Shown here: positions 6,443 to 26,846 of the stretch, piece after piece
Numbering within the stretch: position 1 is the first letter of the stretch
Layout: the number at the start of each line of letters is the position of its first letter
Virus record (IMG/VR): IMGVR_UViG_3300025104_000001
Location: 26,768-90,767 of that record
Source: a virus
Length of the DNA stretch: 64,000 nt
Reading direction: 5' to 3' (one strand)
Position numbers and translations under genes: made by a program
Notes under the pieces: generated by a model
Told to the model about the DNA's origin: nothing
Seen by the model: the letters and a program-made list of their open reading frames with translations, nothing else
Databases searched by the model: none

Positions 6443-6517
6443 TGGTGGAGCTGCGGGGAATCGAACCCCGAACTGCGCCTTGCAAGGGCGCTGTGTTCCC
6501 AATTATACCACAACCCC
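6443..6517 (-). tRNA. tRNA-Ala(TGC)
   Basis: 75 nt with encoded CCA. Acceptor GGGGTTG pairs with CAGCTCC (two G-U pairs), anticodon loop CTTGCAA, T-arm CGGGG TTCGATT CCCCG. Confidence 0.93.
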
Positions 6518-6553
6518 AAAAATCTACATTGTTTTGTATATATTCAAAACGTT

Positions 6554-6629
6554 TGGGATGACCCACGGGATTTGAACCCATACTGCCAAGGTCACAACAT
6601 AGAGTTCTAATCATTACACTAAAGTCACC
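6554..6629 (-). tRNA. tRNA-His(GTG)
   Basis: 76 nt with encoded CCA. It has the extra 5' G(-1) opposite C73 that marks tRNA-His, anticodon loop TTGTGAC, T-arm ATGGG TTCAAAT CCCGT, and a mismatch in the anticodon stem. A 7-bp inverted repeat (6545-6551/6636-6642) flanks it. Confidence 0.88.
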
Positions 6630-6640
6630 ACTAAGCGTTT

Positions 6641-6717
6641 TGGAACGGTTAGTCAGATTCGAACTGACACTTCGGATTTGGAAGACCCGCGTGCTAGCCG
6701 TTAAACACTATAACCGC
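6641..6717 (-). tRNA. tRNA-Gly(TCC)
   Basis: 77 nt with encoded CCA. Acceptor GCGGTTA/TAACCGT, anticodon loop CTTCCAA, T-arm GTCAG TTCGAAT CTGAC. Confidence 0.92.
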
Positions 6718-6730
6718 ATTGAATATAACA

Positions 6731-6810
6731 GGATGGCTCCTACTTTTTGATTAAAGAGAGAAATCGAAACTCTCAACCAGTATATCTTAAAATAACTGCT
6801 GTAACCATCC
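6731..6810 (-). other. tRNA-like element with insertion between T-arm and acceptor
   Basis: Ends GGATGGT and GCCATCC pair over 7 bp like an acceptor stem, and a T-arm-like GAGAG...TTTCGAT...CTCTC is present. However, about 16 extra bases separate the T-arm from the 3' acceptor strand, and no good anticodon arm is found. It is probably a decayed or rearranged tRNA located between tRNA-Pro and tRNA-Gly. Confidence 0.45.
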
Positions 6811-6821
6811 TTAAATTTTTG

Positions 6822-6892
6822 TCTCCGAAGAAGGAATCGAACCTTCGCCTCATGGCCCCAAACCACGCACGCTACCATTACACCACTCGGAG
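6822..6892 (-). tRNA. tRNA-Pro(TGG)
   Basis: 71 nt to the discriminator base; CCA not encoded (ACA follows the acceptor). Acceptor CTCCGAG/TTCGGAG, anticodon loop TTTGGGG on stem CGTGG/CCATG, T-arm GAAGG TTCGATT CCTTC. Confidence 0.9.
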
Positions 6893-6983
6893 TGATTTCC
6901 ATTTTTCTACGGTGACCGCTACCAACTCGCTACTGAGTTGTATCACAGTTAGTTGGATCACTGCATATGATACTTTTAATCAG

Positions 6984-7076
6984 TGGTGCGGTAGGTTGGA
7001 TTCGAACCAACAGTGTTTACCACGAGGGACCGGATTTACAGTCCGGGGATGCACACGCCATAGCATCAACTACCGC
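6984..7076 (-). tRNA. tRNA-Tyr(GTA)
   Basis: 93 nt with long class II variable arm and encoded CCA. Acceptor GCGGTAG/CTACCGC, anticodon loop CTGTAAA on stem CGGA/TCCG, T-arm GTTGG TTCGAAT CCAAC. Confidence 0.93.
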
Positions 7077-7087
7077 ATCTTTGTCGT

Positions 7088-7155
7088 CACCATTTCAAAA
7101 CACAATATCGGTCCGGGATTCTAACCCATTTCTAATTTTGTGTTTTGAAATGGTG
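7088..7155 (-). repeat. 18-bp perfect inverted repeat between tRNA-Leu and tRNA-Tyr
   Basis: CACCATTTCAAAACACAA at 7088-7105 is exactly complementary to 7138-7155; the 32-nt loop contains GGGTTAGAATCCC, a T-arm-like remnant. The right arm includes the encoded CCA end of tRNA-Leu. It may be a precursor-processing stem or the scar of a lost tRNA. Confidence 0.8.
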
Positions 7156-7235
7156 CCCCTAGCAGGGTTCGAACCTGCACTCCTTTCGGAAGCGGATTTT
7201 GAGTCCGCCGAGTCTACCAGTTCCTCCATAGGGGC
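7151..7235 (-). tRNA. tRNA-Leu(CAA)
   Basis: 85 nt with class II variable arm and encoded CCA. Acceptor GCCCCTA/TAGGGGC, anticodon loop CTCAAAA, T-arm GCAGG TTCGAAC CCTGC. First tRNA of the leftward cluster. Confidence 0.93.
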
Positions 7236-14904: not shown

Positions 14905-16605
14905 ATGTTCTTAGTAAAAAAGATTCGATTCAAAAATTTCAGGTCATACGGCAATCAATTTACAGAGATAAACCTAATCAAGAGTGGCAGCACTGTTATC
15001 ACTGCACCTAATGGCAGTGGTAAATCTACCATCTTGATGGCGATTGAATTCGCACTGTTCGGCAAAGTGTCCAACGGCATCAACAAAAACGACTTGGTCA
15101 ATACAATCAACAAGAAAGATCTTGTCGTAGAGATTGAATGTGAAACGAAGGGCAAAGAGATTCTGATTCGCCGAGGCATCAAGCCTAACATCTTTGAAAT
15201 CTTCATTGATGGTAAATTGGTTGACCAAGAGGCGTCTACCAGAGACTATCAAACCCAATTTGAAGAAGAAATCCTGGGGTTCAACATCTCTAGCTTCCGC
15301 CAGGTTGTTTCAATCAGCGGCGGTTCATACACCCCGTTCCTTTTGCTATCTGCGGGGCAACGTAGAAAGATTGTTGAAGAGCTTTTGAACCTAACGGTGT
15401 TCTCTAAGATGTATATCATGCATCTTGCATCTATTGCACAAACGAAAGAAAATCTGCAATCAGTAGAAAACGAAATCGAGAAACTACAAGCATCGCTTGC
15501 TTCATTGAAGAAGGGTCTTGAAACCCTATCAGAGCAAGAAGAAGGCTATCGGAAAACGATTGAAGAAAACATTGAAAAAGCCAACTCAAAGATTCAGGCC
15601 ATCAATGACGAGATAAGAGATCAGAATGTTCAAATCGAAAAGCTCCAATCACAAGCAGACTCTTATGAAGTAAAAATCGCCAAGAAGACCAAGCTCCAAG
15701 AGTATGGACGGGACATGAGGAAGAAGATTCAGAAGATTACAGACTTCATCTCATTCTTCCGAGATAACGATACTTGCCCAACCTGCACCCAACCTATTAC
15801 TGAAGACTTCAAGGCGCAAGTCATCGAAGCTAAAGCAAATAAAAGAACAGAACTTCAGAGTAGCCTTGAAAATCTTAATGCGCTACTTCAAAAGACCGAG
15901 TCAGAAATCGAAAAGCTAGATGAAGTCCTAAAGAAGATTCGTTCTCTTGAAAACAACATCCACACAAACACAAAGCGCATCTCTGACCTTCAGGCATACA
16001 TTTCAGAGCAACAGAAGATCTTGGGTAAAAAACATTTCAGCTCGGCAGACCTTACAGCAGAAATTAAGAAAACTTCTCAGGATATTTCTGAATTAAAAGC
16101 TCGTCGTCTAGAACTTCTTGAAGAAAAACAATATAATGAGGTCATCAGTGCAATCATCAAGGACAACGGCATCAAGTCCAAGATCATTGCGCAATATGTG
16201 CCTCGAATGAACCAAGAGATCAACAAGTTCCTAGAGCTATTGGATTTGGGTATTTCATTCGAGATCAATGAGAATTTTGAAGAACGTATTCTTTCACGTT
16301 TCAAAGACGAACTTTCATACATGAGTTTCTCTGCGGGCGAACGTGCGAGAATTGACATTGCAATTCTTTTCACTTGGAGGGAGTTAGCTAAATTAAAGAA
16401 CTCGCTTAATTGCAATCTGCTCTTCCTAGACGAGATTTTTGATGCAGTATTGGACGACCAGGGACTAGAATCATTCATAAATCTGTTAAAATATCATCTA
16501 AGTGATACGAACGTTTTTCTAATTAGTCATCGACCCGAGGTTGTGGACAAATTTGAGAGCAATCTCCGCATTGTCAAATCTGCAAACTTTTCAAGGATAG
16601 AATAA
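14905..16605 (+). CDS. gp46: Recombination endonuclease subunit, T4 gp46 (Rad50/SbcC-like)
   Basis: ATPase partner of gp47. It has Walker A APNGSGKST near residue 35, a long coiled coil interrupted by the zinc-hook motif CPTC near residue 292, an ABC signature SFSAGERARIDIA and Walker B LLFLDEIFDAV. At 566 residues it is close to T4 gp46 (560). It sits four bases after gp47 and overlaps the ClpP-like gene by one base (TAATG), so the three are coupled. Confidence 0.96.
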   Translation: MFLVKKIRFKNFRSYGNQFTEINLIKSGSTVITAPNGSGKSTILMAIEFALFGKVSNGINKNDLVNTINKKDLVVEIECETKGKEILIRRGIKPNIFEIFIDGKLVDQEASTRDYQTQFEEEILGFNISSFRQVVSISGGSYTPFLLLSAGQRRKIVEELLNLTVFSKMYIMHLASIAQTKENLQSVENEIEKLQASLASLKKGLETLSEQEEGYRKTIEENIEKANSKIQAINDEIRDQNVQIEKLQSQADSYEVKIAKKTKLQEYGRDMRKKIQKITDFISFFRDNDTCPTCTQPITEDFKAQVIEAKANKRTELQSSLENLNALLQKTESEIEKLDEVLKKIRSLENNIHTNTKRISDLQAYISEQQKILGKKHFSSADLTAEIKKTSQDISELKARRLELLEEKQYNEVISAIIKDNGIKSKIIAQYVPRMNQEINKFLELLDLGISFEINENFEERILSRFKDELSYMSFSAGERARIDIAILFTWRELAKLKNSLNCNLLFLDEIFDAVLDDQGLESFINLLKYHLSDTNVFLISHRPEVVDKFESNLRIVKSANFSRIE

Positions 16606-17342
16606 TGATTTCCAAACAACCAGAATATATTCTCCGAACCATGTGGGATAGAATCAAAACAACAAATGAAAATCTAGATCAAGATGAAGAAACTCTTGAT
16701 GAAGTTGTTTCTGAAGATGAGCAGACATCGGTTTCGGTGTTTGACAAGTTTGCAATCATCCAACTGAATGGCCCTGTATGCGCTGAGACGGTCAATCCGA
16801 TTGTGGATTTCATTGTCGGGGCAAATTTGTCAAGTGACAAGAAACTGGATTTGAACGTCATTAACCTTTTCATTGACACCGAGGGCGGCGACCTCCATTC
16901 GGCTATGAAATTGATTGATGCCATTCGTATGAGTGAAATTCCTATTCGCACCATCGGATGGGGTAAGGTGGCATCCGCTGGTCTAATCATTTTCATGACT
17001 GGCGCAGAACGTTTCATATCCGAGAACTGTTCAATCCTTTCGCACAATGCAACCTTCAATGCGGCTCGTTACTCTGTTCGGGTGAATGACCTTTCACACC
17101 AACAAGAGTTCAAGCTCATCATTGACCGAATCATGCGTGTCTACAAAGAATGCACCGGCAAGGATGAGAAGTATATCAAGAAGCACCTGTTGCGTGATAA
17201 TGACGTCTACATGTCCGCTGCCGATGCAATCGAACATGGCCTCGGCGACGGGTTCCTTCCAAGAGGCATGTCTTGGCTAAAAAGTTTGGTTAGACAGAGA
17301 ATGACAGTCGAAGAAGTCCTTGACCCCGAGCTAAATACCTGA
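16605..17342 (+). CDS. ClpP-like serine protease
   Basis: Self-compartmentalising serine peptidase of the S14 (ClpP) family. The fold is recognised by FIDTEGGDLHSAMKLIDAIR, the nucleophile in GKVASAGLIIF (S124), the histidine in SILSHNATF (H147), and an aspartate near RDNDVYMSAADAIEHGLGD (D198 or D200). The first 45 residues are an unusual acidic extension (DQDEETLDEVVSEDEQ). No Clp ATPase is nearby, so it may work alone, for example as a head-maturation protease as in some phages, or use a host ATPase. It lies between gp46 and the clamp gene. Confidence 0.85.
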   Translation: MISKQPEYILRTMWDRIKTTNENLDQDEETLDEVVSEDEQTSVSVFDKFAIIQLNGPVCAETVNPIVDFIVGANLSSDKKLDLNVINLFIDTEGGDLHSAMKLIDAIRMSEIPIRTIGWGKVASAGLIIFMTGAERFISENCSILSHNATFNAARYSVRVNDLSHQQEFKLIIDRIMRVYKECTGKDEKYIKKHLLRDNDVYMSAADAIEHGLGDGFLPRGMSWLKSLVRQRMTVEEVLDPELNT

Positions 17343-17394: not shown

Positions 17395-18060
17395 ATGCAA
17401 CTTTCCAAGCGTACAATCGAAGTTCTCAAGAATTTCGCAACTATCAATCAGTCAATTGTTGTCAAACCTGGTAAGAAGCTTGCGACGATGGCAGTAGCCC
17501 GAAACATTCTAGCCGAGGCCGATGTTGAGGAAACTTTTCCATCAGAGTTTGCGATTTACAACCTCAACGAATTCCTTTCAGCGTTGTCACTGTTCGAGAA
17601 TCCCGAATTGGAGTTTGGCGAGAAGTGGGTCGTGATTCGTGAGAAGGGTGCCAAGCGCGGGGGCGTCAAGTATTTCTATTCAAACAAGGCTCTGATTGTG
17701 CATCCCACAAAGTCCATCAAGATGCCTGATGACATTTCTGTGGAGTTCACCGTTACAGAGGCAATCCTGACAAAAATCTCTCGCGCTGCAGGAGTGTTGG
17801 GTGTGAGTGACGTTGTGGTTGTGGGTGATGATGAAGGCATCAGCCTAATCGTTCAGGATCGTAAAAACGATTCTTCAAACGATTTTGAGATTCAGGTCTC
17901 TGACAAGGCTCAAGAAAAGCCATTCAAGTTCTTCTTCAAGCAAGAGAACCTGAAATTCATCCCGGGTGATTATGTTGTTCAAATTTCAGACAAAGGCATT
18001 TCGTCTTTCAAGAAAGCAGACGGTACAATGCAATACGCCGTGGCTCTAGAAGCCACTTAA
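17395..18060 (+). CDS. gp45: DNA polymerase sliding clamp, T4 gp45
   Basis: Trimeric processivity clamp and, in T4, the mobile activator of late transcription with gp55 and gp33. MQLSKRTIEVLKNFATINQS and KFFFKQENLKFIPGDYVVQI are characteristic of gp45 family members, and the 221-residue length matches (T4 228). It has its own promoter and a TGAGGT ribosome site. It is followed after 13 bp by the DpdA-like gene. Confidence 0.93.
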   Translation: MQLSKRTIEVLKNFATINQSIVVKPGKKLATMAVARNILAEADVEETFPSEFAIYNLNEFLSALSLFENPELEFGEKWVVIREKGAKRGGVKYFYSNKALIVHPTKSIKMPDDISVEFTVTEAILTKISRAAGVLGVSDVVVVGDDEGISLIVQDRKNDSSNDFEIQVSDKAQEKPFKFFFKQENLKFIPGDYVVQISDKGISSFKKADGTMQYAVALEAT

Positions 18061-18073
18061 CCAAGGAGACCCA

Positions 18074-19399
18074 ATGCTACACAATAATAGAATGAACTAT
18101 GTGGCGTCGGGTCTTCAATTTGCCAAGTTCCTCTACAAGGATGCTCTTAAGAGCAAGGAAATTGTTGACCTGACAGGCCAGTGGCTAAAGCGTTTGGATA
18201 ACGTCAACGGCCATCGCTTCAGTGTGCTGTTCAATGCATTCACTGAGAAGAAGATGGGCCCACAGATTCAAGAGACCATCAAGCCTTATGTCTATGATGT
18301 TCATTCGGACTCCGGTGGCCTTCAGATGATTTCTCGTGGCCTTGCTGTGACGCCTGAGATCAAAAAAGAAATCTATGAAACCCAAGGTAGGTATTCAGAT
18401 GTGGCTATGTCTTTTGACGAAATCCCAGTCTATACCTTGGTGCAGAAGTCTGAGCTGAAAGATGCGAGCAATAAAGTATTTGATAGGTCTCGTCTTGAGC
18501 CTTGCGCTAAGGCAACCGCTCGAAACATTACCGAGCAGATCCAATCATTCCTTGATAACAAGTCATCGACCCGCCCATTGGCGATCATTCAAGGGAACTG
18601 TCTAGAGACTGCTATGATTTGGTCGGATATCCTGTTTAAGGAGATTCCACAAAACATGCATGAAGTGATTGGAGGTATCGCTATTGGTTCACCTGCTCTA
18701 GGCGTCGGTGAATTGGAAGAAGTGAAGAAGGCGTTCTGGTTCACCCAGATTCCCTTTGACATTAAAGAGAAACATCTTCATATGTTGGGTGTGGGTGCAA
18801 TGAAGCGATTTGTGCCTACGTTGGTGTTTGTGAAATCGGGTTTGTTCAAGGATACCTTAGTGTCCTACGATTCAACAACCCATACCAGCATGAACATCTA
18901 CGGTCGCTATTACTACGGCAAGAAGCCAGGCCGTCAATATCAGATCGTCTACAATCGTGAATACACTCCAGCGTATGATGAGGTGTATGAAGACATTGTG
19001 TCTTTGCTACCAGAGCTAACCCAATGGTGTAAGAACGGATATGAATTCTTCACATTAATGAACGCCAAGCCAAAAGAATATACCAAGACGAACCCTTCAC
19101 GGATTCCGCTAATCATGTCAACCGTGGCGCATGCAATTTCATGTATTTACAACTTCACCAAGCACGTTGAAGATGCACTTCATGATGACGAAATCCTATA
19201 TGAGATGGTTGATGAAGAAGTAACCGAGCCGAAGTCTAAGATCAAGTATATTGACAAGACCAAGCGGAACGTCTATAATGAGCTAGGTAAAGTAAAAACC
19301 CTTGAGGATTACAAATATTGGGAATCCCATCTTGGCCGTTTCCTCAATAGCAAGCCTTCTCGTAACGGTCATACAACCTTGGATGATTTTTTCGAATGA
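18074..19399 (+). CDS. dpdA: DpdA-like DNA 7-deazaguanine transglycosylase (TGT family)
   Basis: Predicted to swap guanine in DNA for a 7-deazaguanine base such as preQ0, protecting phage DNA from host nucleases. TGT-superfamily features are seen: HSDSGGLQMISRG (DSGGxQ, residues 79-84) with the general acid/base Asp, a second catalytic-type Asp in MSFDEIPV (D115), GGIAIGSPA for base recognition, and HMLGVGAMKR with SYDSTTHT near 266-273, as in phage DpdA rather than tRNA TGT. The 441-residue length with a C-terminal helical extension also fits DpdA. AAGGAG precedes the ATG. Its stop overlaps the HAD gene (ATGA), and the next genes include QueC. Confidence 0.85.
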   Translation: MLHNNRMNYVASGLQFAKFLYKDALKSKEIVDLTGQWLKRLDNVNGHRFSVLFNAFTEKKMGPQIQETIKPYVYDVHSDSGGLQMISRGLAVTPEIKKEIYETQGRYSDVAMSFDEIPVYTLVQKSELKDASNKVFDRSRLEPCAKATARNITEQIQSFLDNKSSTRPLAIIQGNCLETAMIWSDILFKEIPQNMHEVIGGIAIGSPALGVGELEEVKKAFWFTQIPFDIKEKHLHMLGVGAMKRFVPTLVFVKSGLFKDTLVSYDSTTHTSMNIYGRYYYGKKPGRQYQIVYNREYTPAYDEVYEDIVSLLPELTQWCKNGYEFFTLMNAKPKEYTKTNPSRIPLIMSTVAHAISCIYNFTKHVEDALHDDEILYEMVDEEVTEPKSKIKYIDKTKRNVYNELGKVKTLEDYKYWESHLGRFLNSKPSRNGHTTLDDFFE

Positions 19400-19800
19400 G
19401 CATCGGATATGATCTTGACGGAGTTCTAATCTCCGATTTGTACTGGCCTGATGGCATGTCTCTTGAAGATTTTCTTAAGATGCGTGCTTCAGAGCCGTAT
19501 GCCAATTTTGTTCCAAAAGGAAGCTATGTCATTGTGACTGGTCGAAATTCATCAGATAGACCCTACACTGAAGCATGGATTAGCAAAAACCTTGCAAGCA
19601 ATCCCCCGTATCGTTTGTTTCATGATTGTCCAGATCATAGGCAAGGCGCAGAGTACAAGGCAAGTGTAATTAACCAGAACGGCATCAGGATTTTCATTGA
19701 ATCAGATGCAAAGCAGGTTGAGTATTTGAAAAAGCATTGCCCATATTGTCGTGTTTATCATTTCGGGAGCTTTCTAAGTGAAACGTTTTATAACCTATGA
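19396..19800 (+). CDS. HAD-like phosphatase in the DNA-modification cassette
   Basis: 134 residues starting MSIGYDLDGVLI: DxD motif (D6, D8) of the HAD superfamily, then VIVTGRN as motif II and FIESDAKQVEYL as the acidic motif IV region. Probably a small nucleotidase or phosphatase; its substrate is unknown. Translation is coupled to DpdA upstream and to the phosphoribosyltransferase downstream, so it may process a nucleotide intermediate of the modified base. Confidence 0.75.
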   Translation: MSIGYDLDGVLISDLYWPDGMSLEDFLKMRASEPYANFVPKGSYVIVTGRNSSDRPYTEAWISKNLASNPPYRLFHDCPDHRQGAEYKASVINQNGIRIFIESDAKQVEYLKKHCPYCRVYHFGSFLSETFYNL

Positions 19801-20260
19801 GGAAATGACTGCTCTGTTAGATGAGCAGATTCCCAAGATTGAAGCATACGGGTTTGATGAAATCGTTGCTGTGGTTCGTGGTGGTTTGACCGCTGCGCAC
19901 TACATTGCAAAACAACTTCGCTTACCTGTGGGTGTTTACTACCCATCAAATGATGCATATTCTACACCTCGTTTGATCCTAGCCAAGAAGAAGGCGGGCA
20001 AACTGTTGTTTGTGGAGGACCTTGTTGCGCAGGGTCGTACTCATGCCGAGCTATATAAGTTCATGAAGGGCTTTCCAGAAGTCGATTGGCATTTCATGCC
20101 AGTGCTAGTGGATGGGAAGTATGAGAAGAACTTCCTTATGCAGTGTTTGAAAACAGACGACTGGATTGTGTTCCCCTACGAAAAGTATGATAAAATGCAG
20201 GAAGGTGACAGGGGTCTTTTCCGGATGAATTCAGATGTTTATGGGGTAGCAAATGGGTAA
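19778..20260 (+). CDS. Phosphoribosyltransferase-like protein in the DNA-modification cassette
   Basis: 160 residues, type I PRTase fold: AVVRGGLTAAHYIAKQL supplies the pyrophosphate loop and LLFVEDLVAQGRTHAEL the PRPP-binding motif (E80, D81). These enzymes attach or remove ribose-5-phosphate from bases. It starts at GTG 19778 inside the HAD gene (23-bp overlap) and overlaps queC by 8 bp. In this context it could handle guanine or a deazaguanine base, but that is inference. Confidence 0.8.
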   Translation: MKRFITYEEMTALLDEQIPKIEAYGFDEIVAVVRGGLTAAHYIAKQLRLPVGVYYPSNDAYSTPRLILAKKKAGKLLFVEDLVAQGRTHAELYKFMKGFPEVDWHFMPVLVDGKYEKNFLMQCLKTDDWIVFPYEKYDKMQEGDRGLFRMNSDVYGVANG

Positions 20261-21173
20261 GAAGATTGTTGTTTTGCACAGTGGTGGTCTTGACTCTACA
20301 GTGATGTGGCGTCTAGCGAAAGAGGACATTCGCAATGAGGTGATCGCCGTATATTTTGACATTGGACACGACTACGCTTGGAAAGAAAAGGCGCAATTGC
20401 CGCCGGGCGCACACATCCATGATATGACTTGGTTCAAAGCCGAAGGCAAAGGCAAGGCGGGCAACGCCATGAATAACATCTTCATTCCTGGTAGGAACAT
20501 GATGTTTGCTACAATCGCTGCATGTAAGTATCTGCCTGACGAGATTTGGATGGGCGCGCTCATGGGTGAAATCCATGACCAAGCAACCGACAAGAACCTA
20601 GAATATCTCCATCGACAGAACGATATTCTTAGTTATGTTCTATCGCCCTTCGGAAAAGTGAAGGTGGTGTTTCCTTTCGTAGAACGCCAGTGGGGTAAGC
20701 TGCAAGTAACAAGGTGGGCATGCCAAAACGGTATGCAACAAGAGATTCTCGCATCGAGTTCATGCATGAGCGGTGAAGCAGGAAATTGTGGTCGTTGCGG
20801 CGTTTGTTTGCGCCGTGCAGGCATTTTCCCTCAATTAAACATGGAAGAAAGCTACAACGTTGATCCTTGGACAGCCCCCGAGAACCGCAAGCTGATCCAC
20901 GATTTGATTGTTGCTGAAATCAATCAAGACGATTCCCATTATGACCGCTTCCGTAGGGAAGAGATCATCCCCACTCTAATCCGAAACCACAGCGGAAAAT
21001 CTTTGCAGGAAATTTTGGAGCTTTATACGGATGGGGCTACTCAAGCTAAGGAAGAAGTTCTACAAGAAACTCCTCAAGAATCCGGGCCTAATCAAACGGA
21101 AATGAACCAAGACCAGACCTCGACAAGCACCCACAATCCAGACGCACCTCCTCAAGTCACCCATGTTGTTTAA
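20253..21173 (+). CDS. queC: QueC-like 7-cyano-7-deazaguanine (preQ0) synthase
   Basis: ATP-dependent enzyme of the PP-loop family that turns 7-carboxy-7-deazaguanine into preQ0. The motif HSGGLDSTVMW (SGGLDS at 10-15) binds ATP, and a cysteine cluster (SCMSGEAGNCGRCGVC, about residues 170-185) matches QueC's zinc site. It has a C-terminal, polar low-complexity extension of about 60 residues rich in Q, T, E and P, which is atypical. FolE, QueD and QueE are not in this window; they could be elsewhere in the phage or supplied by the host. Confidence 0.88.
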   Translation: MGKKIVVLHSGGLDSTVMWRLAKEDIRNEVIAVYFDIGHDYAWKEKAQLPPGAHIHDMTWFKAEGKGKAGNAMNNIFIPGRNMMFATIAACKYLPDEIWMGALMGEIHDQATDKNLEYLHRQNDILSYVLSPFGKVKVVFPFVERQWGKLQVTRWACQNGMQQEILASSSCMSGEAGNCGRCGVCLRRAGIFPQLNMEESYNVDPWTAPENRKLIHDLIVAEINQDDSHYDRFRREEIIPTLIRNHSGKSLQEILELYTDGATQAKEEVLQETPQESGPNQTEMNQDQTSTSTHNPDAPPQVTHVV

Positions 21174-22023
21174 TACCGCTTACATCATCTCATACCTGCC
21201 TAATGATTCTCTCAAGGCCAGGCGCCTTGAGATTCATAACAAACAGGTTGACTATTGGCTGGCTAAGGGTTTGAACGTCTTGGTGTATGCCCAAGGATAT
21301 CAACAAGACGACTTCCGAAAGGACGTCCAGTATATCGTCAATACCCGAGGCGAAACCGATAGGCCCGGGCCCGCTCGTAACGTCTTGCTCCGTGCTTTTT
21401 ATGATTCGGATGAAGACTTTTGTTTGTTGATGGACAACGACATTGTTCTCTATGAGGGTGAGAAGTATTGTGATAGTGACAACCTTGTTCAAATCTTAAA
21501 AGACATTCCTCTTGAAAGCCTAGAAGGTGTAGATGTATTTGAGCCTTTGAATCCTACACAAACACCTTTCAGTGCTTTCTATGCCGAAAAGAAGGATGTG
21601 CTAGCTAACAACCTAATCTTCAAGCGTCGTCCGAACATCTCAGGATGTTGTTTGTTCATTAGAAATTTCAAGAAGTTTGGTGAAGAGCCATTCTTCTATA
21701 ATGATTGGTTTGATGAAAAGACAGGTAAGGTTATCATGGGAGAAGATGTTGCCTTCGGTCTTAACCTCACGAAAAAGGGCAAGGGTGTCTATTCTTTGAT
21801 GAATGCCGTCCGAAAGGACATGGGGTGGACGTCGAGCTCTTGGTGCAAGAGCCCTGAAATCAGAAAGCAATCATTTGAAACTCTGAAGGCGATCCTACCG
21901 ACTTTGGGAGTGGGAACCAAGAACGGGAACCTAGATTGGGCAGGTTTCGCCGATCGCTACAAGATCCCACGACAAGTTCTAGCCCCCAAGAAAAAATCCG
22001 CAAGCATCCTAGACATGATGTGA
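21163..22023 (+). CDS. GT-A type glycosyltransferase in the DNA-modification cassette
   Basis: 286 residues. RPGPARNVLLRAFYDSDEDF followed by CLLMDNDIVLYEG (D91, D93) looks like the nucleotide-sugar-binding region and DxD motif of GT-A glycosyltransferases; NISGCCLFIRNF and MGEDVAFGLNLTKKGKG fit the acceptor half. It overlaps queC by 11 bp and ends the cassette. Transfer of a sugar onto the 7-deazaguanine-modified DNA, as T4 glucosylates hydroxymethylcytosine, is an attractive but unproven reading; glycosylating a protein is the alternative. Confidence 0.7.
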   Translation: MLFNTAYIISYLPNDSLKARRLEIHNKQVDYWLAKGLNVLVYAQGYQQDDFRKDVQYIVNTRGETDRPGPARNVLLRAFYDSDEDFCLLMDNDIVLYEGEKYCDSDNLVQILKDIPLESLEGVDVFEPLNPTQTPFSAFYAEKKDVLANNLIFKRRPNISGCCLFIRNFKKFGEEPFFYNDWFDEKTGKVIMGEDVAFGLNLTKKGKGVYSLMNAVRKDMGWTSSSWCKSPEIRKQSFETLKAILPTLGVGTKNGNLDWAGFADRYKIPRQVLAPKKKSASILDMM

Positions 22024-22436: not shown

Positions 22437-22586
22437 ATGCTGAAAGACTTCATTATGTGGATGCAAGAACCCGGCAAATGGAATGACGTCATGGTTATTT
22501 GCGGTGTGGTTATTATTGTTTCTTTGATCGGCATAATTGTCTGCGAAAAGATTGAAAAGCGTAAAGCTTGGAAAATGGGCCGATAG
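22437..22586 (+). CDS. Small single-pass membrane protein, 49 aa
   Basis: MLKDFIMWMQEPGKWNDVMV precedes a strong hydrophobic helix (about residues 19-37) and a basic tail, an N-out/C-in arrangement. GAGGAC lies upstream of the ATG. Remarkably, its last three codons (GGC CGA TAG) are the first bases of the tRNA-Met gene, so maturing the tRNA would cut the mRNA. The function is unknown. Confidence 0.65.
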   Translation: MLKDFIMWMQEPGKWNDVMVICGVVIIVSLIGIIVCEKIEKRKAWKMGR

Positions 22587-22653
22587 CTTAGTGGCCTAAA
22601 GCAGCGGCCTCATAAGCCGTTGATCCTGGGTTCAAATCCCAGTCGGCCCACCA
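22577..22653 (+). tRNA. tRNA-Met(CAT) (or tRNA-Ile2)
   Basis: 77 nt with encoded CCA. Acceptor GGGCCGA/TCGGCCC, anticodon loop CTCATAA on stem GCGGC/GCCGT, T-arm CTGGG TTCAAAT CCCAG. A CAT anticodon could also be modified to read AUA. Confidence 0.95.
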
Positions 22654-26347: not shown

Positions 26348-26846
26348 ACTGTTTCTCATTATGATTCTTCTATTGGGCTCTCTAATTCCTTCACATGCTT
26401 CAAACTACAAAGCGATTGACGCCATTGAAGCCCTGTCAAATGCAAACAAAGAAATGGTTTGTCTGGCTAAGGTCATTTATGATGAAGCACGAGGTGAAAC
26501 GCCTCGTGGCATGCAAGCCGTTGCCCACGTTGTTTTGAATCGAGCAAAACATCAAGACTACCCTGGTACAATCTGCGGCGTTGCATATCAAAAGCATCGT
26601 GGCGTTTGTCAATTCAGCGGAATGTGCAAAAAGAAGACTAAGCAGTTTGATGCCGAGTCTTTGAATGTAGCATATAGAGTTTTGGTTTTGAAGGACGTAA
26701 AAGACCCAACCCGAGGCGCAACACACTTTCACAATGATACCACATCACCGCCATGGAGCAAAACATATGTCAGAACAGCAAGAATTGGAAAACACACTTT
26801 CTATAAACCAGGCTATCGACAAAATCCAAGTAGTCGAGGAGATTGA
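26280..26846 (+). CDS. SleB-like cell-wall hydrolase with signal peptide
   Basis: After a hydrophobic export signal (KLFLIMILLLGSLIPSHA) comes the Hydrolase_2/SleB domain: LAKVIYDEARGETPRGMQAV, VLNRAKHQDYPGTICGV and GATHFHNDTTSPPW. The Glu in YDEARGE is the likely catalytic residue of this lytic transglycosylase-type fold. The start is uncertain: ATG 26280 overlaps the nuclease gene by 68 bp; TTG about 26306 or ATG 26360 are alternatives. It would degrade peptidoglycan, perhaps early during infection since it is embedded in a replication operon rather than the lysis cassette. Confidence 0.75.
   Translation, partial: NTKHLDQSLLLSGKTFGKSTVTKLFLIMILLLGSLIPSHASNYKAIDAIEALSNANKEMVCLAKVIYDEARGETPRGMQAVAHVVLNRAKHQDYPGTICGVAYQKHRGVCQFSGMCKKKTKQFDAESLNVAYRVLVLKDVKDPTRGATHFHNDTTSPPWSKTYVRTARIGKHTFYKPGYRQNPSSRGD

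Follow-up and report, generated by a model that had tools for sequence, protein, structure and literature searches.

A five-gene phage cassette that may install and glycosylate 7-deazaguanine in DNA

Introduction

What base does a phage make when a gene for a DNA-guanine transglycosylase (DpdA) is followed by overlapping genes for a HAD phosphatase, a phosphoribosyltransferase (PRT), a QueC-family protein and a glycosyltransferase (GT)? The question is raised by a cassette in a 64,000-nucleotide stretch of viral DNA, positions 26,768 to 90,767 of the 90.8-kb IMG/VR record IMGVR_UViG_3300025104_000001 (hereafter the window, carried by the window phage). An initial annotation had proposed that the cassette may make a base beyond preQ0, for example a sugar-decorated deazaguanine. 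We give a probability of about 0.6 to the reading that the cassette installs 7-deazaguanine in DNA and glycosylates it. The full pathway, the DpdA2-type enzyme and repeated ties between GT and DpdA genes argue for that proposal, but the gene combination, unfamiliar to that annotation, is not unique, and a preQ0 intermediate is not assured.

Results

DpdA2 transglycosylase and deazaguanine supply

The assignment of the first cassette gene as a DpdA2-type DNA-guanine transglycosylase that inserts a base was well supported by homology and fold, and the earlier DpdA-like call was borne out and narrowed to the DpdA2 family (Table 1). In tblastn searches the protein matched Vibrio phages at 29-31% identity (E to 3e-41), and in the alignment it was 29% identical to the homologue of Vibrio phage 6E35.1a. 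The score with a DpdA2 hidden Markov model that includes the window protein was 8e-162, and the match to the Tgt model TIGR00430 was weak (9e-4). The TGT family PF01702 was silent in all 17 phage records searched; this silence is uninformative, because three of these records carry DpdA2. The blocks DSGGLQ, FDEIP, QGN and YDS were common to the homologues of Vibrio, Stenotrophomonas, Pseudomonas, Xanthomonas and Synechococcus phages. DSGGLQ and D266 were invariant in an alignment with the DpdA homologues of six other phages, as were D79 and D266 across 20 DpdA sequences; by analogy to TGT, D79 (in DSGG) and D266 (the nucleophile) would be the catalytic aspartates. In Foldseek, the AF2 model (pLDDT 88.6) matched only five PDB chains below E 0.001, all of them TGT/QTRT1 (E 4.9e-7 to 7.7e-6). 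Vibrio phage nt-1, in which DpdA2 was defined, has dPreQ0 in its DNA (PMC6884629), and in phage 6E35.1a, which has a direct DpdA2 relative, 15% of dG was modified with a mass that fits dPreQ1 (PMC12028318). The DNA of the window phage very probably contains a deazaguanine.

A search for FolE, QueD and QueE elsewhere in the genome had been suggested in the initial annotation, and all three were found; the QueD is in two parts and resembles that of 6E35.1a. The phage should therefore be able to make 7-deazaguanine from GTP itself, and the predicted pathway of FolE, QueD, QueE, QueC and DpdA2 is, as judged from sequence, complete in one phage. The PF01242 search of the 90-kb record gave no QueD; the gene lies outside the record and was recovered from sister contigs. 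An identical locus was present in the 128,635-base contig CAKZJX010000007.1, whose ends share a perfect 183-base repeat. Because the window spans that junction, the phage genome is probably a closed circle of about 128.45 kb. The contig was binned in a metagenome-assembled genome labelled Anaerolineae (species collection), which may point to the host or else be an artefact of binning. In the window phage genome we found no QueF, no GT-B, no 120-amino-acid QueD-like protein and no sugar epimerase, and a search of CAKZJX010000007.1 for ArcS gave no match; QueF, GT-B, epimerase and ArcS were dropped as candidates. The exonuclease gene between FolE and QueE consists of two open reading frames (ORFs) in the window phage and of one in Synechococcus phage BUCT-ZZ01, which may reflect a frameshift, another start or a broken gene.

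Window glycosyltransferase

The last gene, called a DxD glycosyltransferase in the initial annotation, which had also suggested structure prediction, encodes according to its model a GT-A glycosyltransferase with an invariant DxD. No Pfam family matched the protein at E <= 0.1. Searching the PDB directly by sequence was of no use for DpdA2, the window GT, the QueD-like protein or a longer DpdA described below, and fold searches were therefore used. The AF2 model of the GT had 140 PDB matches at E <= 0.001, with GT-A enzymes at the head and GalNAc-T2, PcManGT and AvpGT among them. The residues A71-R72-N73, D91-N-D93 (both Asp) and E194-D195 were invariant in 16 GT sequences. A TET-associated glycosyltransferase (TAGT) ranked second among the viral structural matches, but identity with TAGT was rejected, as the similarity was structural only and there was no profile match. 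Among 44 GT-A relatives, 23 were near deazaguanine genes and 15 were elsewhere; the other 6 showed the same synteny but were truncated by it being cut off. One homologue occurs in the jumbo Sinorhizobium phage Phosso, in which QueD-like, GT-B, FolE and QueE genes form a locus of their own and the long DpdA lies at yet another, third site.

Glycosyltransferases at other DpdA loci

IMG/VR contained 389 DpdA2 relatives. We sampled 80 of them, picked by similarity to the window protein and thus non-random, and collapsed them at 70% identity to 29 clusters. In 25 of the 29 clusters DpdA2 had a GT no more than 6.5 kb away, always on the DpdA strand. Upstream GTs, 29 in number, overlapped the DpdA start by 4-8 bases in 22 cases, and downstream GTs were usually one gene off. 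The common order was QueE-FolE-exonuclease-[GT]-DpdA-QueD-like-GT-QueD, beside apparent gp47/gp46 genes, and the slot upstream of DpdA was filled by a GT-B in many contigs, whereas the L080/L102 group had a GT-A homologous to that of the window there. This GT-A also occurred in the L110-L126 group, upstream of QueE-PRT-FolE; four of the records were checked for DpdA2, and all four had it. The window clade was apart from the L115/L122 group in the DpdA2 tree (in which a GT-B representative also stands for the L080 group), so the GT-A family has joined DpdA2 loci more than once. Sister DpdA2 loci also carried sugar-nucleotide enzymes: a GDP-mannose dehydratase (PF16363, 3e-135), an epimerase and a fusion of a nucleotidyltransferase with a mannose-6-phosphate-isomerase cupin.

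The 120-amino-acid QueD-like family (phrog_17812) occurred in L008, in 70 other DpdA2 loci and in L098 and L099, next to DpdA in phages with FolE, QueD and QueE; H16, H35, H37 and S-C-E were invariant. It is perhaps an enzyme that processes 7-carboxy-7-deazaguanine (CDG), and we suspect it to be the CDG decarboxylase DpdL, reportedly described by Cui et al. in 2023, a name for which the literature search was empty. For the protein L009_hA of Xanthomonas phage X1, identity as a PIG-L deacetylase was dropped, with no Pfam match.

At least 366 GT-B relatives were present in IMG/VR, and 80 of their loci were fetched. A long DpdA (485-540 amino acids, with DSGGFQ and YDCASPF motifs) was found in 76 of them, an SDR sugar epimerase in 76, a QueD-like protein in 66, FolE in 58 and PRT in 54. 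This protein had no Pfam or PHROG match and aligned with DpdA2 by hhalign (E 6e-7, probability 92%); by its sequence it is apparently a separate DpdA family. In the cultured Pseudomonas phage Paride, the long DpdA, GT-B and QueD-like genes are consecutive and are followed by SDR, PRT and QueE; PA5oct also has the long DpdA and QueD-like genes.

Two further loci had the order FolE-DpdA(long)-radical SAM-HAD-PRT-small ORF-QueC-GT-A (L258) and FolE-DpdA(long)-radical SAM-HAD-PRT-QueC, one gene, GT (L257). Their HAD, PRT and QueC were 30-35, 41-45 and 27-29% identical to those of the window. Their GT was GT2-like (PF00535, E 0.013, below the cut-off), with no detectable similarity to the window GT. 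Because the order is conserved while the genes at both ends are exchanged, the role of the GT can be argued to be tied to deazaguanine. The combination of genes is not a one-off, as other phages also have PRT, HAD and GT genes next to DpdA. The small radical SAM protein (PF04055) of these two loci is absent from the window cassette.

Divergent QueC

The window QueC belongs to the family named in the initial annotation, scoring above the PF06508 cut-off, but it is not of the canonical type. It keeps the SGGLDS ATP loop, IPGRN (with the R of VPxRN) and four zinc cysteines, spaced C-x7-C-xx-C-xx-C (x8 in E. coli). In E. coli QueC, mutation has shown YxQxHxxE, YPDC and Y189 to be essential, and the enzyme is inactive when Y35, Y131 or Y189 is changed to alanine (PMC13329287). 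In the subfamily of the window QueC, (Q)ATDKN replaces YPDC; the window protein has QATDKN and no Tyr at any of these three positions. As the protein is of a divergent subfamily, a preQ0 intermediate is not assured.

Across the 29 DpdA2 clusters, 24 had a GT only, 4 QueC only and 1, the window clade, had both, a near-exclusion with a Fisher p of 2e-4, uncorrected for phylogeny. The window clade is unusual in pairing QueC with a GT. The exclusion is not absolute, because L246, added after clustering, has DpdA2, GT-B and QueC together. Modules of INO1 (myo-inositol phosphate synthase, PF01658), HAD and QueC recur in phages, most of them near DpdA2. They hold relatives of the window QueC, some beside FolE and DpdA2 and once beside a GT-B. 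This context suggests, as speculation, that the QueC product is other than preQ0 and that HAD acts on a sugar or cyclitol phosphate; an inositol-linked deazaguanine is possible for these modules.

HAD phosphatase and PRT

In the HAD protein D6, D8, T48, K88, E102 and D104 were invariant in three homologues (window, L005 and Stenotrophomonas phage Ps15), and the conserved DxD, T, K and E-x-D motifs agree with the initial call of a HAD phosphatase. The Ps15 gene, annotated 'phosphoribosyltransferase', is a HAD instead. The putative PRT carries the PRPP loop VEDLVAQGRT and matched the xanthine PRT model NF006613 at 4.5e-7, under the curated cut-offs of NF006613 and PF00156. Purine-like PRT genes were present in many DpdA loci, also where HAD or QueC was absent. 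Since each DpdA exchange frees one guanine, its recapture as GMP would be the simplest role of the PRT. The part of the PRT, and perhaps that of HAD, may be limited to salvage of the freed guanine, outside hypermodification.

Cassette layout and gene conservation

The initial description of five genes overlapping by 4-23 bp was confirmed, with overlaps between successive ORFs of 4, 23, 8 and 11 bases. The order was conserved in the 16-kb viral contig L005, whose proteins were, in gene order, 80, 64, 65, 77 and 68% identical to those of the window. Third-position changes far exceeded second-position changes, with nonsynonymous divergence (dN) of 0.15-0.32 and saturated synonymous divergence (dS), so all five ORFs are maintained genes and not chance frames. 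The context is that of a T4-like phage: the cassette sits among the replication genes gp45, gp46 and gp47, downstream of the sliding clamp gp45, a Clp-like protease and a gp47/gp46-like pair. The ClpP-like gene lies between gp46 and gp45, and similar genes flank DpdA in 17 loci. The window has a cluster of six tRNA genes, and a tRNA-Met lies just past the cassette.

Table 1. Positions of the cassette genes and of other features named in the text
Feature	Locus	Position	Strand	Details
DpdA2-type DNA-guanine transglycosylase	window	18074..19399	+	441 aa; phrog_10773 1e-97
HAD-family phosphatase	window	19396..19800	+	134 aa; phrog_415 1.8e-6
Putative type I purine-like PRT	window	19778..20260	+	160 aa, GTG start; phrog_8995 4.5e-9
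Divergent QueC-family protein	window	20253..21173	+	306 aa; PF06508 3.7e-14
GT-A fold glycosyltransferase (predicted)	window	21163..22023	+	286 aa; AF2 model pLDDT 84.9
ClpP-like protease	window	16605-17342		PF00574, 1.5e-22
Sliding clamp gp45	window	17395-18060		
tRNA cluster	window	6443-7235		
tRNA-Met	window	22577-22653		
Split exonuclease gene	L015	2773-3303 (upstream of the window)		window phage
INO1-HAD-QueC module	L246	5502-7795		
INO1-HAD-QueC module	L247	5438-7765		
INO1-HAD-QueC module	L248	5313-7750		
INO1-HAD-QueC module	L250	4784-7846		
INO1-HAD-QueC module	L245			
INO1-HAD-QueC module	L007	3502-5983		Stenotrophomonas phage Ps15
QueD-like protein	L008	9296-9658		
Phage with window-GT homologue	L012	7992-8864		Sinorhizobium phage Phosso
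Phage with window-GT homologue	L095	7615-13269		Sinorhizobium phage Phosso
Long DpdA	L099	4221-7366		Pseudomonas phage Paride
Long DpdA	L143-L222			
Radical SAM protein	L257	2663-3307		
Radical SAM protein	L258	3449-4093		

Discussion

We propose the following route to a glycosylated base. FolE, QueD and QueE would convert GTP to CDG, and the divergent QueC would activate the CDG carboxylate with ATP and turn it into an amide, a nitrile or the like at C7. DpdA2 would exchange guanine in phage DNA for this deazaguanine base, the purine PRT might return the released guanine to GMP, and HAD might take a phosphate off a nucleotide or a sugar phosphate within this pathway. The GT-A would then move the sugar of a host nucleotide-sugar to the C7 group of the inserted base, as in the glucosylation of hydroxymethylcytosine (hmC) in T4. 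From its gene context, the GT probably acts on the inserted base. Several points weigh against this route. The GT-A fold matches are generic, with TM-scores of about 0.5, which give the fold and not the substrate; 15 of the 44 GT-A relatives, mostly distant ones, lie away from deazaguanine genes; and GTs adjoining DpdA are known from sequences and predicted folds. The sampled loci are related and were selected by similarity to the window, and the window QueC is without three residues essential in E. coli QueC. The sugar epimerases of sister loci are absent from the window phage, so a host donor must be assumed.

The phage might instead carry plain deazaguanine DNA, with preQ0 or a 7-amide, while the GT serves a cell surface, a virion protein or a small molecule and shares the operon for convenience. 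Many phage GTs serve surface glycans, some distant relatives of the GT-A are not in deazaguanine loci (one in L013 has capsule-related genes as neighbours), and the DpdA2 phages measured so far show plain dPreQ0 or dPreQ1. However, these are two phage types with QueC, mostly together with QueF or ArcS, and do not test the GT type, because there is no GT at their locus. As GT and DpdA genes overlap tightly on the same strand and, across many lineages, three GT families are associated with two families of DpdA, we regard this explanation as rather unlikely. An action on tRNA, with the GT glycosylating a queuosine-like base, would suit the TGT fold of the DpdA model and the phage tRNA genes, which include those for Tyr and His; in animals, queuosine in tRNA is glycosylated by enzymes of both the GT-A and the GT-B type. 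It is highly improbable, since mass spectrometry has placed the deazaguanine of phages with DpdA2 relatives in their DNA (PMC6884629, PMC12028318), QueA, QueG and QueH were not found in viruses (PMC6884629), and the locus lies among replication genes.

A two-step sugar or cyclitol conjugate, in which QueC joins activated CDG to a partner other than ammonia and the GT extends it, also deserves weighing. The partner would be inositol in sister phages, where INO1 makes the phosphate and HAD strips it; in the window phage, HAD would dephosphorylate a phosphoribosyl product of the PRT to supply it. The (Q)ATDKN motif in place of YPDC, the INO1-HAD-QueC modules by FolE, DpdA2 and once a GT-B, and the recurrence of the HAD-PRT-QueC block in L257 and L258 are in keeping with such chemistry, and a precedent is given by the type IV CBASS, in which QueC-family proteins are described as conjugating deazaguanine to protein (PMC13279940). 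Yet the subfamily chemistry is read from sequence, the L257 and L258 QueC proteins are without TDKN although they stand beside HAD and PRT, and tblastn with the Ps15 protein detected no INO1 homologue in the window phage. Guanine salvage is the simpler role in those loci where the PRT occurs without HAD or QueC. We consider this conjugate unlikely, and prefer direct glycosylation of the inserted deazaguanine. More tentatively, at least two DpdA families may share swappable GTs, QueC-family ligases, HADs and makers of inositol, phosphoribosyl and nucleoside diphosphate sugars, and so yield diverse C7 sugar or cyclitol conjugates of guanine, an undescribed class of bases.

If glycosylation of the deazaguanine is correct, the sugar-bearing purine would add a new class to the known hypermodifications of DNA bases, the guanine counterpart of glucosyl-hmC, with a probably altered effect on restriction and Cas nucleases. 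Because genes of these kinds also occur together in many other phages, it is likely to represent a new class of phage DNA armour. The candidate enzymes named by the analysis are glycosyltransferases for deazaguanine in DNA, a second family of DpdA and a subfamily of QueC whose chemistry is probably altered. The 2023 abstract of Cui et al. reportedly lists eight deazaguanines, none of them glycosylated. No mention of glycosylated deazaguanine DNA was found in the open literature, a body that lacks two key papers, and novelty is provisional; deazaguanine DNA bases in the cited literature bear small C7 groups only. Only two open papers mention DpdA, 7-deazaguanine, phage and a glycosyltransferase together, and in one of them the GT is unrelated to DpdA (PMC12028318). 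The question is answerable on existing DNA, because the loci, which are common in phages from the environment, are also present in the cultured phages BUCT-ZZ01, X1, ACP17 and Paride.

Comparison with known systems

The DpdA2 cluster of Vibrio phages nt-1, KVP40 and 6E35.1a, which are T4-like as is the window phage, shares with it homologous DpdA2, FolE, two-part QueD, QueE and a QueC (PMC6884629, PMC8056088, PMC12028318). In contrast, the Vibrio cluster has a canonical-like QueC and QueF (ArcS in nt-1) with no GT, PRT or HAD beside DpdA, whereas the window has all three, the divergent QueC and no QueF. In BUCT-ZZ01, Xanthomonas phage X1 and Acidovorax phage ACP17, the DpdA2 gene overlaps or adjoins a GT and is accompanied by FolE and QueE, as in the window phage, but the GT is a GT-B with the 120-amino-acid QueD-like protein and no QueC at the locus, instead of a GT-A with QueC; their cassette genes are annotated as hypothetical proteins in the records. 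The long-DpdA loci of the Paride/PA5oct group and of many IMG/VR contigs, like the window phage, hold a TGT-superfamily protein, a GT, a PRT and QueE in one region, but differ in their separate longer DpdA, their sugar epimerase and, mostly, the lack of HAD and QueC.

The animal enzymes QTMAN and QTGAL, a GT-B and a GT-A, mannosylate and galactosylate queuosine in tRNA. They would share with the window GT the glycosylation of a nucleic-acid 7-deazaguanine, but their substrate is tRNA and not DNA, and the sugar is placed on the cyclopentenediol of queuosine, which the window phage is not known to make. The T4 alpha- and beta-glucosyltransferases of hmC and TAGT act on hydroxymethyl-pyrimidines, unlike the window GT as proposed, which is also without a Pfam match; the post-replicative transfer of a sugar to a modified base is the logic that they and the proposed window system would have in common.

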